Position numbers and translations under genes: made by a program. 20,160 nucleotides of DNA from positions 1 through 20,160 of the IMG/VR virus record IMGVR_UViG_3300049796_000012; one strand, 5' to 3'. How positions within the stretch are numbered: position 1 is the first letter of the stretch; every line of letters begins with the position of its first letter. This stretch comes from a virus. This document shows positions 15,265 to 19,661 of the stretch, piece by piece. The notes beneath the pieces were generated by a model. That model searched no databases and had not been told where the DNA came from. It saw nothing but the letters and a program-made list of their open reading frames with translations.

Positions 15265-15776
15265 GCCTTCGGCGCCCCCTTCCTCGGTTTGCCGAGCCCA
15301 ACCTGTTTGAAAAACTTGGCCTCGATTAAGTTCTTGACTTTATCGCCCGGTTTGAATGTGCCTTTCTCCAAATTGCACATATGAGGCTGCTTGATTCCGA
15401 AGAATGTTGCAAATTCTGCCTGCGTGTAGCCGAGCTCCAAGCGCTTGGCGCGGACCATTTTGCCCCATTTTTTGGACCCGTCTCGACGCCGGTCTTCGGG
15501 CGCCCAACCCTTGGGTCCACGATTAGATTTGGTGGACCTCGTCTTAGCCGGAGTCTTCATCTTCGGAGTCTTGCGCGGCCCGGCGCTGCGTCGCTTCAAC
15601 GGCCGCTTGGCGGCCATCTTCTCAGCCCTCAACGCAGCACGCTTCTCACGCAGCGCCTTGTTTTTCCGGTCTCGTTTGACTTGCGCCTCGTCAATTTCAC
15701 TTTCAACAATCGGCAATATCCCCACTTGAAGCACTCCAGATTCAATCAACGCGTCCGCCATTTCTCCCAAATTCAT
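15261..15776 (-). CDS. XRE-type HTH protein with long basic linker (171 aa)
   Basis: The C-terminal part (residues about 104-152) is a lambda-repressor-like helix-turn-helix: MVRAKRLELGYTQAEFATFF, then GIKQPHMCNLEKG as recognition region, then a closing helix. Residues about 33-100 are very rich in Lys, Arg, Ala and Pro and probably bind nucleic acid without sequence preference. The N-terminal 30 residues are acidic and helical. A GGAG site lies 6 nt before the ATG, which overlaps the polymerase stop. It may control the switch between replication and packaging genes, but it could also be a structural DNA-binding protein. No peptidase domain for SOS cleavage is present. Confidence 0.8.
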   Translation of the reverse strand: MNLGEMADALIESGVLQVGILPIVESEIDEAQVKRDRKNKALREKRAALRAEKMAAKRPLKRRSAGPRKTPKMKTPAKTRSTKSNRGPKGWAPEDRRRDGSKKWGKMVRAKRLELGYTQAEFATFFGIKQPHMCNLEKGTFKPGDKVKNLIEAKFFKQVGLGKPRKGAPKA

Positions 15777-17308
15777 AAATCACTCCATCTATCTCCGCGC
15801 TTTAAATCAATAGATAAAATAAGTTTTCCACCTGCAGTGTCAATAGGCCGAGACCAAATTTCTGCAATCAACGATTGCGCCACATTTAGCATATTGTTGG
15901 GCACGTCATAAATACAAGCATCGTGGACCTGCGCGACGAGGTGCGGGCCGATGGGACTTTTGCTCAGTTCGATGGTCCTCCGATTCACGATGTCGGCCAG
16001 GCCCGACTGGATAGGATAGTTGGCCACATCGGTGATTTTGGGGAACCATCCCAACCAACGTATGCGACCCAGGAATGGTGTGCGCATAAATCCACATCGG
16101 CGGACTTGGGCGAGGTTGGCGTCGACCCATCGGTAGTACACGCGGTAAGCGGCATGGAGCTTGTCGAGGATAAGGCTCACGGCAGACATGCTCACATCGA
16201 ACCCCTTCGACCGCAGCGTCATGTAGACTTTCTCCGCCTCCGCGCAGTAGCTGATGGCGAATCCAAGGTTCTTCGCAATGTCGCGAAACTGCTTGCCGCG
16301 CGCGGCGTCTTTCTTCGCATCGCCGTCGAGCCATCCGCGCGCCGATATCTCTGGAAATACCGCCTTGGCATTGTTGGCATGCACATCTCCGGCGCATGCC
16401 GCGATAAAATTCGGGTCATTGCTCAAATATGCCGCAAGTTTCATCTCCGCCTGCCTCACGTCGTAGTAGATGAACGTATGCCTGGGCCGCGGAACGTAAA
16501 TCTCGCGGACTCGCGCTTCCGGTGGCGGGCTTGGCTCGCCGATTGGATACCTCGGCACAGACTGAAACCGACAACTCAATCGACCAGAGACAGTCCCGAA
16601 CGGCTTCCAGTTGAAGTGCGCGCGCGCCCCGCGCATGAAAACGCCTTTTTTCCCCGGCGCCCCCAGCGCATCCAAATAGGTGCTCTTGATTTTGCCGACC
16701 AGCCGCCACGTGAGAAGCGCGGTCGCAAACTCCGCGTGCCGCGTATTGCCGCTCATCCGCAGTCCTTCGAGAGTCTCGTCGGCGGTCGACGCGGCGCCCT
16801 TTGGCGTCAATTTGACATATCGTGCCCCGAGGCTATGCGGGCTGAATAGATGGTACCGGACACTATCGAGCTTGCCGGGATTGAACAGCGGGTCGCCGAC
16901 GATGTTTTGGAGTTCTCGTCGGAGGGCCTCGCGACGCACCGATAGAGACTCGGAAAGCTCCCGTTTTTTCTCGAGGTTGACGCCAATTCCGGTCCGCTGC
17001 ATCTCGCGGCACACTGCCGCCAACTGCCGGTCATGCTCGTAGACAGCTCGCTCAGGCTGCAAATCGCCTTGCATTCGCTGCCACGCGAACATGGTGAGAA
17101 TTGCATCACTCGCATTGTATTTGCAGAGTGTATCGCCATCGAGCCTATCCGGCGTCGTGCCCTTCTCATCCTCTGAACTACCTTTGAATATTTGCTTCCA
17201 CGGCCTCGAGTCAGTGTAGCAACTAGCGACGTGGTCGAGCCGCTGCGGAAGGTGGGATGCGAATGCGTGGTGAGCGAGCAAAGTGTCGTGACAATTCGCA
17301 AACTTCAT
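15773..17308 (-). CDS. Family A DNA polymerase lacking Exo I/II (511 aa)
   Basis: The phage replicative polymerase. Residues 1-75 are only the last third of a 3'-5' exonuclease: the HDTLLAHHAF segment with D8 and Exo III Y64-x3-D68. Exo I and Exo II are missing here and are found at the end of the uracil-DNA glycosylase gene upstream. The polymerase domain is complete: TVSGRLS (239-245), motif A with D283 and E288, motif B with R342, K346, F350 and Y354 in exact family spacing, N430YPIQSG, and motif C H462-D463. Motif C reads HDA, where the family usually has HDE, and motif B ends YC instead of YG. The ATG overlaps the upstream stop (ATGA). Confidence 0.93.
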   Translation of the reverse strand: MKFANCHDTLLAHHAFASHLPQRLDHVASCYTDSRPWKQIFKGSSEDEKGTTPDRLDGDTLCKYNASDAILTMFAWQRMQGDLQPERAVYEHDRQLAAVCREMQRTGIGVNLEKKRELSESLSVRREALRRELQNIVGDPLFNPGKLDSVRYHLFSPHSLGARYVKLTPKGAASTADETLEGLRMSGNTRHAEFATALLTWRLVGKIKSTYLDALGAPGKKGVFMRGARAHFNWKPFGTVSGRLSCRFQSVPRYPIGEPSPPPEARVREIYVPRPRHTFIYYDVRQAEMKLAAYLSNDPNFIAACAGDVHANNAKAVFPEISARGWLDGDAKKDAARGKQFRDIAKNLGFAISYCAEAEKVYMTLRSKGFDVSMSAVSLILDKLHAAYRVYYRWVDANLAQVRRCGFMRTPFLGRIRWLGWFPKITDVANYPIQSGLADIVNRRTIELSKSPIGPHLVAQVHDACIYDVPNNMLNVAQSLIAEIWSRPIDTAGGKLILSIDLKRGDRWSDL

Positions 17309-17568
17309 CTGCTTAGTTGTCTCCGGCTCACCGCGAACACGGCTGATTTTGCCGCACCGTCAAGGGCACCATACAACGCCTGATTTGGACTCTGTTTGCT
17401 CCAAAACCATACAGTGTACTTGCCCCTCATATTGGGGCATTTTTCGCGACACTGAACGGCGGCCAACCAGCCGCTCTTCTTCTCAACCCAACGCATACGA
17501 ACACGCACCTTTGAGCTGTCGACGGTGAAGTCTAGAGGGCTAGGGCCCCATATTTGCTCAATCACCAC
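17305..17568 (-). CDS. Unknown protein encoded inside the split exonuclease (87 aa, GTG start)
   Basis: The frame begins with GTG at 17568, overlapping the glycosylase stop by 7 nt, and its own TGA overlaps the polymerase ATG (ATGA). It therefore fills exactly the gap between the two halves of the exonuclease domain and should be translated by coupling with both neighbours. The protein is basic and looks beta-rich (SSKVRVRMRWVEKKSGWLAA, then KYTVWFWSKQ) with a C-terminal helix (ALDGAAKSAVFAVSRR). There are two Cys (QCREKC) but no HNH, GIY-YIG or LAGLIDADG motif and no intein block. I do not recognise the fold. A nucleic-acid-binding bridge between the two halves or the remnant of an inserted element are both possible. 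Confidence 0.72.
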   Translation of the reverse strand: MVIEQIWGPSPLDFTVDSSKVRVRMRWVEKKSGWLAAVQCREKCPNMRGKYTVWFWSKQSPNQALYGALDGAAKSAVFAVSRRQLSR

Positions 17569-18494
17569 ACCACCCCATGATTCTCCAGTACCAGCAAATC
17601 AAAATTCTGCCCGTTGTGGAACACTACCTGCTCCAACCCCGCCAAATGTTTCGCCACCTCAGGCCCATACGCATCTCGCCACGGCCAAATTTCGACCACG
17701 TTCTGGAACGAATCTGAGAATCCGATGCTCAAAATGTTACATTCCAACGGTTTGATGCCATTCGTTTCGATGTCGCAGGACACCGCACGAGGAAGCAGAT
17801 GTTTTAGGACCTCGGGCCCGCCGACGTGGTAATTGCATTCGTCTTCGAACGGGGCTGTCGTCTCTCCGCGCACGATACGACCCGCGCGCCGAAAATCGAG
17901 CTCGGAAATGGGTTTCCACGTGTCCGCCCTGAGCACGAAGGCAGGGTGGATGCTCGGTAGCACCAGTCGCATCGCCAAGGCCGCCCGGCCTCGCAGCGTG
18001 TCGCCGCGTAGAATGCCGCCCGTTTTGGACTTGAACGCAGCTTTGATGACCTTTTCGTCAATCTCGGGGGCCGACCAAATAAAACCACGTGCGACAAGAA
18101 TGTTGCGCACGCCCAACACGGAGCGCATTGCAGTTTTGCCGAGCGCCACAATAGGCGCAGAACGCGGAAGGGCTGCAAGCTCCGTGAGCAGACGAGGAGC
18201 ACAACATTCCGCGGCACGTTCGTTGTCGTCATCACTCTCTCCGCGGCAAAGCGCCGCATTAGTCACATGGCAGTCACCCCGCGGGACTTTGGCATCTCGG
18301 CGGAGTCGCTCATCGAGAAACTTGCCGGAGAGTCCCACGAACGGCACACCAAGTTTCTCCTCGATGCGCCCCGGCCCCTCACCCACGATGACGAGTCGCA
18401 CTCTGTTGGTAGCCGGAGTGGGCGGAACGACAACGGCCCCGGCGAGCGGGCAGATGTCGCACCGCGCGCCGTGGGCCTGAGGATTATAGATCAT
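17562..18494 (-). CDS. Uracil-DNA glycosylase (family 4 type) fused to N-terminal exonuclease motifs
   Basis: Residues 1-225 are an iron-sulfur uracil-DNA glycosylase: C12 and C15 with C83 and C97/C98 as cluster ligands, motif GEGPG at 38-42 followed by GVPFVGLSGKFL, and the IHPAF motif near residue 180. It would remove uracil from DNA. Residues 238-310 are not glycosylase: CDIETNGI (D241, E243) is Exo I and FHNGQNFD (N294, D299) is Exo II of a DnaQ-like proofreading domain, and the protein then stops. The rest of that domain begins the polymerase gene. Fusions of this kind of glycosylase to family A polymerase are plausible ancestors. The ATG overlaps a 13-codon ORF by ATGA and has only a weak ribosome site. 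Confidence 0.9.
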   Translation of the reverse strand: MIYNPQAHGARCDICPLAGAVVVPPTPATNRVRLVIVGEGPGRIEEKLGVPFVGLSGKFLDERLRRDAKVPRGDCHVTNAALCRGESDDDNERAAECCAPRLLTELAALPRSAPIVALGKTAMRSVLGVRNILVARGFIWSAPEIDEKVIKAAFKSKTGGILRGDTLRGRAALAMRLVLPSIHPAFVLRADTWKPISELDFRRAGRIVRGETTAPFEDECNYHVGGPEVLKHLLPRAVSCDIETNGIKPLECNILSIGFSDSFQNVVEIWPWRDAYGPEVAKHLAGLEQVVFHNGQNFDLLVLENHGVVW

Positions 18495-18539: not shown

Positions 18540-18567
18540 AGAATAGCTCTAAATATTTGGGAGTCAA
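18540..18567 (-). promoter_or_regulatory. Candidate sigma70-type promoter for the replication block
   Basis: On the minus strand TTGACT (18567-18562) is a 5/6 match to a -35 box and TATTCT (18545-18540) a 4/6 match to a -10 box, with a 16-bp spacer in an AT-rich stretch. The expected start point is at or next to the ATG at 18532. It would serve the glycosylase and polymerase genes and those behind them. Confidence 0.45.
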
Positions 18568-18589
18568 GAACTCTGAGCAAATAAATAGC

Positions 18590-18605
18590 GTCCGTCTCTC
18601 CGGAC
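18590..18605 (-). terminator. Stem-loop with T-rich tail, possible terminator of the RNA region
   Basis: Read on the minus strand, GTCCG-GAGAGA-CGGAC forms a 5-bp stem with a 6-nt loop, followed by GCTATTTATTTGC. The T-tract is broken, so termination may be partial. It lies between the tRNA-like elements and the promoter of the glycosylase unit, the right place to separate them. Confidence 0.35.
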
Positions 18606-18664
18606 TGTCACGGCTACTCTCATTTGGCCTACCGTTGGTCAGGTGTTACGTGGGGAGTCACACG

Positions 18665-18719
18665 CCAGGGCTCTAGCGCCGCGTTCCCTGGAAGCCCTCA
18701 GAGTCACCATCTCGTGGTG
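18665..18719 (-). other. Cluster of hairpins with two mutually exclusive pairings
   Basis: CCAGGG (18665-18670) can pair with CCCTGG (18686-18691), or the overlapping AGGGCT (18667-18672) can pair with AGCCCT (18693-18698); both cannot form at once. A separate hairpin CACCA/TGGTG with a 5-nt loop lies at 18705-18719. No gene is seen from 18614 to 18796. The arrangement could be an RNA switch or an unrecognised structured RNA. Confidence 0.35.
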
Positions 18720-18796
18720 CGGCGGGCTATATTGAAGGGGCTTACACGGACTCGCCCACAAGACATGCTAGCGCGTCATGGGTTACCGATGCCCAG

Positions 18797-18883
18797 TGCG
18801 ATAGTCGGGCTTCGAACCCAACACCCGGATGTCCGCCGCTGGTCATTCCCATAAAGGCAGCATCCCCGTACCTCATTTATCGC
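18797..18883 (-). ncRNA. tRNA-like RNA with long variable arm, irregular anticodon arm
   Basis: The acceptor strands GCGATAA and CTATCGC pair in 6 of 7 positions and are followed by A as discriminator. The T-arm is near-perfect (TTGGG, loop TTCGAAG, CCCGA). The 87-nt length and a small CGG/CCG hairpin before the T-arm resemble class II tRNAs (Leu, Ser). A D-stem GGT/GCC is possible. However, no 5-bp stem with a 7-nt anticodon loop can be formed: the best helix, TGCTG/CAGCG, closes a 16-nt loop and competes with the D-stem. No anticodon can be assigned. A degenerate tRNA or a tRNA mimic is likely. No CCA is encoded. Confidence 0.45.
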
Positions 18884-18884
18884 A

Positions 18885-18913
18885 TTGGCGCCTGATTGTC
18901 CCTCGGTGCCATA
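18885..18913 (-). repeat. Hairpin repeat, copy 1, one base upstream of a tRNA-like element
   Basis: On the minus strand it begins TATGGCACCGA and ends ATCAGGCGCCAA; GGCACC can pair with GGCGCC apart from one A-C mismatch. A second copy with the same ends is at 19556-19587. Both copies stop exactly one base before the acceptor stem of a tRNA-like element. It may guide processing or belong to the RNA. Confidence 0.5.
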
Positions 18914-18984
18914 GGGAGTGTACTAACACCACCGACCCTCGCTCTATCAGCCGCGTGTCAAGTTGGCTTCATCGAGTCCGAGTG

Positions 18985-19066
18985 TGGAACGGGCTGGGAT
19001 TGCACCAGCGACCTCGCAGCGTGATACCAAGCACTGCTGCACGCTCTCCTTCTGAGCTACCGTCCC
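18985..19066 (-). tRNA. tRNA-like gene with a 17-nt anticodon loop
   Basis: The most regular of the tRNA-like elements. Acceptor GGGACGG/CCGTTCC pairs in all 7 positions (one G-U), bases 8-9 are TA, and the D-arm GCTC-AGAAGGA-GAGC is canonical. The variable loop AGGTC is normal, and the T-stem GCTGG/CCAGC closes a 7-nt loop TGCAATC. The anticodon stem TGCAG/CTGCG is intact, but its loop is 17 nt instead of 7 and can fold further as GTG/CAC around CTTGGTAT. TGG (Pro) follows CT in that tip, but the loop context is not standard, so the amino acid is undetermined. Discriminator A; CCA is not encoded. Confidence 0.6.
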
Positions 19067-19069
19067 AAT

Positions 19070-19083
19070 CCCCCTCTCGGGGG
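19070..19083 (-). other. Strong G/C hairpin just upstream of the tRNA-like gene
   Basis: CCCCC-GAGA-GGGGG (minus strand) is a 5-bp all-G/C stem with a GAGA tetraloop of the stable GNRA type, 3 nt before the 5' end of the tRNA-like gene. There is no T-run, so a processing or stabilising role fits better than termination. Confidence 0.5.
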
Positions 19084-19129
19084 TAGCAACAACTGGGGGG
19101 TCATTGCCGTAGACGCGTCGAGTTTTTGC

Positions 19130-19170
19130 TTACATTGTCCGCTCCTTATGCCCGCGAAATTGCGGGAGCG
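19130..19170 (-). promoter_or_regulatory. Start-stop element with a ribosome site that can be sequestered
   Basis: On the minus strand AAGGAG is followed 6 nt later by ATG and at once by TAA, a minimal start-stop unit. The GGAGCG of the ribosome site is the exact complement of CGCTCC at 19170-19165, which overlaps the 3' end of the tRNA-like element upstream, with a further small CCCGC/GCGGG hairpin between. Pairing would hide the ribosome site. It may be chance, as nothing downstream is a clear gene. Confidence 0.3.
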
Positions 19171-19236
19171 CCACTTGTCGGATTCGCACCGCACGGCCCC
19201 TCATCGGAGCGACTACAGCATCGCTGCTCAGTGGCA
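19168..19236 (-). ncRNA. Short irregular tRNA-like RNA
   Basis: Acceptor strands TGCCACT and AGTGGCG pair over 7 positions (one G-U end pair). A T-like arm has loop TGCGAAT, with 3 continuous pairs and 2 more if one G is bulged. An AGCA/TGCT hairpin sits where a D-arm would be, but lacks the usual GG. The anticodon region folds as GCTCC-GATGA-GGGGC, a 5-nt loop. The total length of 69 nt is short. It would not work as a standard tRNA; degenerate tRNA or mimic. Confidence 0.35.
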
Positions 19237-19266
19237 AAACACGAGTACATTTTCTTGCAACGCGTT

Positions 19267-19314
19267 AAAATGACAACGCTGTCTTTTGACGCAAGGGGGC
19301 GCGTAGCCCCCCTT
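19267..19314 (-). terminator. Two hairpins after the 35-codon ORF, possible terminator
   Basis: Read leftwards, AAGGGGG/CCCCCTT forms a 7-bp stem (19314-19293) starting 6 nt after the ORF stop. It is followed by GACA-GCGT-TGTC flanked by AAAA on one side and ATTTT on the other (19287-19267), a small A/T-bordered terminator-like hairpin that could work in both directions. Confidence 0.4.
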
Positions 19315-19320
19315 CCTTTC

Positions 19321-19428
19321 TCATCCTCGGTTCCGAGTCGCCAGCCCTTTCTTGATTTTGGCGTCGAGTTCTGCCCGAGCCGCCGCGAGTCCGTCTGCCG
19401 CCGTCCCCATATTGTCCGCGTTGTTCAT
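19321..19428 (-). CDS. Possible 35-aa protein in its own small transcription unit
   Basis: An ATG at 19428 opens a 35-codon frame beginning MNNADNMGTAADGLAAARAE and ending in a basic stretch; the middle should form one amphipathic helix. The ATG lies 7 nt downstream of a good -10 box with no ribosome site between, as for a leaderless mRNA. Hairpins and a terminator-like element follow the stop. The surrounding promoter, operator-like repeats and terminator favour a real gene, but it is short and unrecognised. Confidence 0.45.
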   Translation of the reverse strand: MNNADNMGTAADGLAAARAELDAKIKKGLATRNRG

Positions 19429-19464
19429 GTCTATTTATATAGACCCGCAAATAGACCTAGTCAA
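19429..19464 (-). promoter_or_regulatory. Candidate promoter with overlapping GTCTAT operator-like repeats
   Basis: TTGACT (19464-19459, 5/6 match), 17-bp spacer, TATATA (19441-19436). Over the -10 box is a palindrome with GTCTAT and ATAGAC half-sites (19429-19444), and a third half-site GTCTATTT lies in the spacer (19456-19449). A repressor, perhaps the XRE-type protein of this phage, could bind here; that link is inference. Confidence 0.5.
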
Positions 19465-19488
19465 GGTGTTCGCTCAAATTATTTATAG

Positions 19489-19554
19489 TTCAACTGGCAG
19501 GATTCGAACCTACACGCATCATACGGAGCTCCAGCTCCTCGCATGCTCAGTTGA
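19489..19554 (-). ncRNA. tRNA-like RNA without a D-arm and with extended hairpin
   Basis: Acceptor TCAACTG/CAGTTGA is a perfect 7-bp stem with discriminator A, and the T-arm GTAGG, loop TTCGAAT, CCTGC is canonical. Between them only 34 nt remain, too few for both D and anticodon arms. These form one long hairpin: CATGC/GTATG, then GGAGC/GCTCC closed by the TGGA tetraloop. There is no 7-nt anticodon loop, so it cannot decode in the usual way. No CCA is encoded. A D-armless tRNA, a decayed tRNA or a tRNA mimic are the options. Confidence 0.45.
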
Positions 19555-19555
19555 G

Positions 19556-19587
19556 TTGGCACCAGATTTTCCTCGGTCGGTGCCATA
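19556..19587 (-). repeat. Hairpin repeat, copy 2, one base upstream of a tRNA-like element
   Basis: On the minus strand it begins TATGGCACCGA and ends ATCTGGTGCCAA. GGCACC and GGTGCC pair perfectly over 6 bp around a 15-nt loop. It matches copy 1 at 18885-18913 at both ends, with C/T changes in the stem that keep most of the pairing, and has the same one-base distance to the next tRNA-like acceptor. Confidence 0.5.
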
Positions 19588-19630
19588 CCGCGCCGCATCC
19601 CACTCACCCGCAGCTAGGTGTCGGTTGAGC

Positions 19631-19661
19631 GGAGCCGCCCGTAGATGAGACAGGCGGCTCC
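19631..19661 (-). terminator. Perfect 9-bp inverted repeat after a gene end
   Basis: GGAGCCGCC and GGCGGCTCC enclose a 13-nt loop, 12 nt after the stop of the small gene at 19674-19943. No T-run follows, so it may act as an mRNA-end stabiliser, a processing site or a factor-dependent stop rather than a classic intrinsic terminator. Nothing else was recognised between 19588 and 19673. Confidence 0.4.

Follow-up and report, generated by a model that had tools for sequence, protein, structure and literature searches.

A phage family A DNA polymerase encoded in two genes that part within its proofreading exonuclease domain

Genes A and B and the reading frame between them

The window analysed here is a 20,160-nucleotide (nt) stretch of viral DNA, positions 1 to 20,160 of the IMG/VR record IMGVR_UViG_3300049796_000012. 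Its minus strand carries three open reading frames (ORFs) arranged head to tail with no gap between them: gene A, which encodes a uracil-DNA glycosylase (UDG) domain and the first half of a 3'-5' exonuclease, a small spacer ORF, and gene B, which encodes the second half of the exonuclease and a family A DNA polymerase. The features of the locus, with the evidence for each in brackets, are as follows (aa, amino acids; dN/dS, ratio of non-synonymous to synonymous substitution rates).

17562..18494, minus strand: gene A, UDG domain and N-terminal half of the 3'-5' exonuclease, 310 aa (PF03167, phrog_17)
17919..18404, minus strand: UDG domain, gene A residues 31-192 (PF03167)
17565..17789, minus strand: ExoN half-domain, gene A residues 236-310 (phrog_17, alignment, Klenow match, dN/dS)
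17766..17774, minus strand: Exo I, D241-x-E243 of gene A (sequence, alignment)
17598..17618, minus strand: Exo II, HNGQNFD, gene A residues 293-299 (sequence, alignment)
17305..17565, minus strand: spacer ORF, 86 aa (GTG start; no Pfam or PHROG match)
15773..17308, minus strand: gene B, C-terminal half of the exonuclease and family A polymerase, 511 aa (PF00476, phrog_17)
17054..17305, minus strand: ExoC half-domain, gene B residues 2-85 (alignment, Klenow match, dN/dS)
17105..17119, minus strand: Exo III, Y64-x3-D68 of gene B (sequence, alignment)
15782..16966, minus strand: DNA_pol_A domain of gene B (PF00476)

The UDG domain of gene A scores 70.2 bits against PF03167 (Pfam cut-off 24.3) and is followed by about 75 residues that resemble the start of the Pol I 3'-5' exonuclease and form the C-terminal end of the protein, FHNGQNFDLLVLENHGVVW. 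An earlier reading made from the sequence alone (the sequence-only reading) had placed the motifs CDIETNGI (D241, E243) and FHNGQNFD (N294, D299) at this end of the UDG gene, and both lie within its last 75 residues. Gene B has the N-terminal start MKFANCHDTLLAHH, in which HDTLLAHH occupies residues 7-14, as the same reading had it; Exo III (Y64/D68), still near the start, and the polymerase follow. The match to PF00476 (114.5 bits, cut-off 34.3) places gene B in family A. Taken together, genes A and B carry Exo I D-x-E, Exo II N-x4-D and Exo III Y-x3-D, as seen in an alignment of 30 rows that includes intact polymerases; this combination is that of the DEDDy class, to which the Pol I 3'-5' proofreading exonuclease belongs.

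Pfam is weak on the separate halves, which were identified by the phrog_17 DNA polymerase profile, by alignment and by motifs. Gene A uses columns 603-749 of phrog_17 and gene B columns 754-1231, so that hardly any column is lost at the cut. In addition, a profile built from the relatives matches Klenow without a break at the junction (E 2.4e-65), which bears out the proposal of the sequence-only reading that the two ends would join at near-native spacing. What that reading does not mention is that the gap between the two genes is itself an open frame: the GTG start of the spacer overlaps the stop of gene A (GTGA) and its stop overlaps the ATG of gene B (ATGA), by 4 nt each.

Recurrence of the cut and variety of the spacer ORFs

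The cut is found in seven contigs belonging to five lineages, and the division of the exonuclease domain first suspected from the window is therefore real and conserved. Six of these are further IMG/VR contigs: one near-identical to the window, four in three lineages that are 64-79% identical, and one distant (45-51%). The near-identical contig, L002, is a separate 28.9-kb contig, about 99% identical to the window, with the same three ORFs; its gene A is incomplete and ends at the contig edge. Identity of gene B to that of the window is 99% in L002, 79% in L007, 73% in L003 and L005 and 70% in L004, and identity of gene A is 64-76% in the three other closer lineages. In the distant contig, L014, gene A (45%) and gene B (51%) are cut at the same place. 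The DNA_pol_A domain (PF00476) is present in 8/8 records tested, and each of the seven split records, which may be fragments, has exactly one family A polymerase match.

The sequence-only reading had left intact glycosylase-exonuclease-polymerase proteins to be sought among related phages, and such one-chain relatives exist. Two are the loci L013, with an apparent intein, and L015; in four phage records (BK063670, PP438425, MW202622 and MW202489, the four examined of 18 UDG-matching records) UDG and polymerase form one coding sequence. The apparent intein (about residues 653-969 of L013:2872-6522) lies in the palm and adjoins the catalytic aspartate, as judged by eye. BK063670 comes from a methanogen-linked virus. 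Two further polymerase-matching phage records were examined, one of which has the UDG as a separate gene. No split was seen in named phages, where the searches gave distant polymerases and UDG polymerases (six records examined), and a scan of genome contigs for relatives returned one ordinary bacterial Pol I. As a control, a stop within 60 codons of the Exo II motif occurs in 0/80 IMG/VR loci, these being the matches listed for a DNA pattern from the Exo II region, a few of which are not polymerases; the pattern scan thus gave no further splits among the loci listed. By their motifs many of the 80 resemble exonuclease-polymerases of the T7 type, and 58 passed the length filter.

The sequence between genes A and B is not inert: each of the four closer lineages has a different small ORF there, of 90 to 261 nt, while the position of the cut is unchanged. 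The ORF measures 86 aa in the window and L002, 81 in L004, 56 in L007 and 29 in L003 and L005. The overlaps at both ends, GTGA with the stop of gene A and ATGA with the start of gene B, are shared by the window, L003, L004, L005 and L007. In the distant L014 nothing separates the halves, and the two ORFs overlap by 17 nt in different frames. None of the four spacer ORFs has a Pfam or PHROG match over the cut-off (matches listed to E 10), and a homing endonuclease gene is not among these matches; a past homing endonuclease insertion, later replaced, stays compatible with this result. Among phage records the spacer of the window has just two chance-level matches (E 6-10), and in IMG/VR its only relative is L002. 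Matches of the spacer ORFs of the window, L004 and L007, the three queried, are confined to their own lineages (8 records).

A random stretch with the same composition would remain open with a probability of 0.028 for the window, 0.013 for L007, 0.098 for L004 and 0.32 for L003. The low values for the longer spacer ORFs are the reason why these look translated, and the 29-aa ORF taken alone is unremarkable. Stop/start overlaps of the 4-nt type are common in the window (6/19 neighbouring pairs in a hand-drawn gene list). In L004, no clear ribosome-binding site is seen by eye in the 25 bases upstream of the gene B start, which fits reinitiation.

Constraint on both halves and position of the cut in the fold

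The residues D241, E243, N294 and D299 of gene A and Y64 and D68 of gene B are invariant in 5/5 split lineages in the alignments. The retention of all acidic catalytic residues, noticed at first in the window, thus extends to every lineage that has the cut. In the six pairs that the four closer lineages form, dN/dS (Nei-Gojobori, with a cap where the proportion of synonymous differences, pS, reached 0.74) is 0.094-0.155 for ExoN and 0.028-0.153 for ExoC, alongside 0.092-0.200 for the UDG and 0.091-0.122 for the polymerase domain; these are rough values with synonymous sites near saturation, of which only the order of size counts. The four pairs with L014 give 0.175-0.236 (ExoN), 0.204-0.306 (ExoC), 0.235-0.304 (UDG) and 0.156-0.165 (polymerase). 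Such ratios indicate that both exonuclease halves are under purifying selection.

The place of the cut in the fold was read from a model of the intact L013 protein, built on a 30-row alignment and covering 610 residues up to a point before the intein (mean predicted local distance difference test score, pLDDT, 88.9). In this model the Exo II helix spans residues 327-337 and the following strand residues 347-349. The cut falls between the two, at 338-346, in a loop that includes a turn of three residues and lies at the surface. The UDG part superposes on the Thermotoga maritima UDG 1vk2 (Z 21.5, 2.2 Å over 171 residues) and the exonuclease-polymerase part on the Klenow structure 1d8y (Z 19.6, 4.9 Å over 347). 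The model was also compared by Foldseek. It serves to locate the cut, as a model of one chain that says nothing on contact between two.

The UDG domain of the window carries C12, C15, C83, C97, C98, GEGPG and HPAF, as expected of a family 4-like member of the UDG superfamily, and its nearest solved relatives are family 4 UDGs. With the L013 model, family 4 and UdgX structures tie as UDG matches.

A probable two-protein polymerase, its alternatives and the closest known systems

The anatomy of the genes, the conservation of the cut and of the residues, the selection on both halves and the position of the cut are probably best explained by a family A polymerase made of two proteins, with a proofreading site that arises only once they bind each other. 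That the two are translated in a coupled way, that they associate, and that the exonuclease, or the glycosylase, is active are inferences. The UDG-fused family A polymerase, known as a single chain, would thus be divided between two proteins in these few uncultured phages. In the RNase-H-like 3'-5' exonuclease, strands one to four and the helix of Exo II would belong to chain A, which also has the UDG domain; the last strand and the helix of Exo III would belong to chain B, along with the entire polymerase. Both chains would be made from one message, gene B being read by reinitiation after the small variable ORF. They would then associate through the exonuclease fold, so that the proofreading site (D, E and D of chain A, Y and D of chain B) would be present in the complex alone. 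Association would also hold the UDG domain on the polymerase.

Several observations weigh against a two-protein polymerase of this kind. The loci are all metagenomic and L014 is a single contig, and the dN/dS values are rough, as said above. PF01612 is detected at E 0.001 in the intact L013 and in 0/7 split records; this profile spans the cut, and each half alone may drop below its threshold. On the exonuclease part of gene A, Pfam gives only a sub-threshold RNase_H_2 match (E 0.081). A model of gene B alone, built on five sequences, had a mean pLDDT of 45.2 and was not used. Finally, the HPAF histidine, and with it the HP motif, is lost in two lineages, where the motif reads APSF (L004) and GPTF (L014); GEGPG is also changed in L014. 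The UDG domains of these two contigs (L004:1815-2762, L014:3001-3981) still have the cysteines despite the missing histidine, and no Exo residue is lost in either contig. In L004 and L014 the UDG domain may be retained for structure, like a non-catalytic subunit. The sequence-only reading had the arrangement physically tie uracil removal to proofreading and synthesis, and this part of its proposal is weakened, because the Exo residues are all kept in the two lineages without the HPAF histidine.

The strongest of the alternatives is that proofreading has been lost, the two proteins working apart or chain A merely docking, with the exonuclease halves as remnants. An exonuclease severed in the core of its fold might be inactive, PF01612 goes undetected in the seven split records, and the decay of the UDG motif in L004 and L014 implies that parts of chain A can lose catalysis. 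However, the six Exo residues checked are all invariant in 5/5 lineages, selection constrains each half to about the same degree as the polymerase, and the stretches adjoining the cut are the most conserved of those tested. The invariance of the catalytic residues makes such a loss unlikely.

Alternatively, the halves could be joined into one chain by a self-splicing intron, by translational bypass or frameshifting, or by a split intein. The junction is precise with almost nothing lost, and in L014 the 17-nt overlap means that one frameshift would join the frames. Against an intron, the window has no Rfam match at gathering thresholds, and at E up to 5 its positions 17200-17700 give one sub-threshold sRNA and no intron family. 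The spacers are different ORFs, from 261 nt down to 90 nt, with stop/start overlaps at both ends, and no common slippery sequence is seen by eye at the junctions. A split intein would need residues that are not there, as gene A of the window reads to its end as HGVVW-stop and gene B starts with MKFANCHDT. With no intron in the window, short and unlike spacers and no residues to spare for a split intein, a joined product is very improbable. An assembly or sequencing error in the window, which the metagenomic nature of the contigs might suggest, is barely conceivable given the same three ORFs in the separate, about 99% identical L002 and the same cut with other spacer ORFs in three more lineages (L003, L004, L005 and L007). 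In L014, and there alone, a one-base error may be at play.

How often the loop was broken is a separate matter. In the gene B tree the split L014 groups with the intact L013 (97/99), and the two fall together with the window clade in a larger group (100/100), so that the split label needs two changes on the tree. The UDG tree does not settle this grouping (56/0), and there are several long branches. Either the loop was broken twice, or it was broken once and L013 was re-fused, or L014 reflects a recent frameshift or an error in a single contig; a single origin is accordingly not claimed. The group of the window is independent of the question of L013 and L014.

If the two-protein polymerase holds, nature would have divided the proofreading exonuclease of a family A polymerase within its catalytic fold, under selection, and the active-site residues of this exonuclease would be shared between two chains. 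It would lead one to ask whether a Pol I proofreading site can be built from two proteins, and whether its separation allows a virus to adjust its mutation rate. The succession of different small ORFs at one fixed place also documents clearly how genes have been inserted, in nature, between two halves of one enzyme that would be translated together. That the break is useful is a more speculative and rather doubtful idea: proofreading and UDG would form a detachable subunit, the polymerase would run with or without proofreading depending on bound chain A, and the gap would be a slot for exchangeable small genes, which by being translated would set the ratio of the chains or through their products would act on the complex.

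Phage polymerases in two genes and single chains of UDG, exonuclease and polymerase are already known. Pseudomonas phage PaBG gp205 and its relatives are described as having the same parts in the same order as the window (UDG, 3'-5' exonuclease, family A polymerase), but in one chain, whereas the window has two chains cut inside the exonuclease (PMC7412058). The T4-like Aeromonas phages 25 and 44RR have a split gene 43 (43A/43B), again two genes, separated by a stretch of DNA, for one replicative polymerase of a phage, and the 43A and 43B products of phage 25 are reported to co-purify and polymerise (PMC2988022). These are family B polymerases, described there without a UDG, and the window, with its family A polymerase and UDG, does not belong to the T4-like system. 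Their spacer is a seg-type homing endonuclease gene or untranslated, in contrast to the unrelated small ORFs found here. By analogy, the polymerase of the window would work like gp43A/gp43B without being a member of that group. The same source reports that the pieces of the split nrdA of Aeromonas phage Aeh1 give an active enzyme; this is a ribonucleotide reductase, not a polymerase, and is split by the homing endonuclease gene mobE (PMC2988022). Split polymerases of other families are described for phage MIJ3 (DNA polymerase B, with a proposed split intein, unlike the window, where none is seen; PMC6892783) and for jumbo phages (Pol III alpha-like proteins; PMC7824862). Searches of the open-licence literature, with subscription literature mostly outside their range, gave no account of a cut inside the Pol I proofreading domain. 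Nor did they give the combination seen here, in which a family A polymerase is cut within this domain, the UDG sits on the chain without the polymerase and the gap holds a small ORF that differs between lineages.

A few observations concern the surroundings of the locus. Upstream of the UDG gene, some 1.1 kb (18550-19650) contains no long minus-strand ORF and has tRNA-like stretches, among them 19489-19554 (Rfam tRNA 20.2 bits, cut-off 29) and 18984-19066; ARAGORN calls none. The structural region encodes a 1091-aa protein (4324-1049, minus strand) with no PHROG match at E 0.1. The best phage matches listed for the large terminase (13363-11948, minus strand) are to viruses of methanogens, for example psiM100 (41.8% over 61% of the query). 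Downstream of gene B, a helix-turn-helix gene with a basic N-terminus (15776-15261, minus strand) shares ATGA, as its start, with the stop of the polymerase gene, and a similar ORF also follows the polymerase in L002, L003, L004, L005 and L007.

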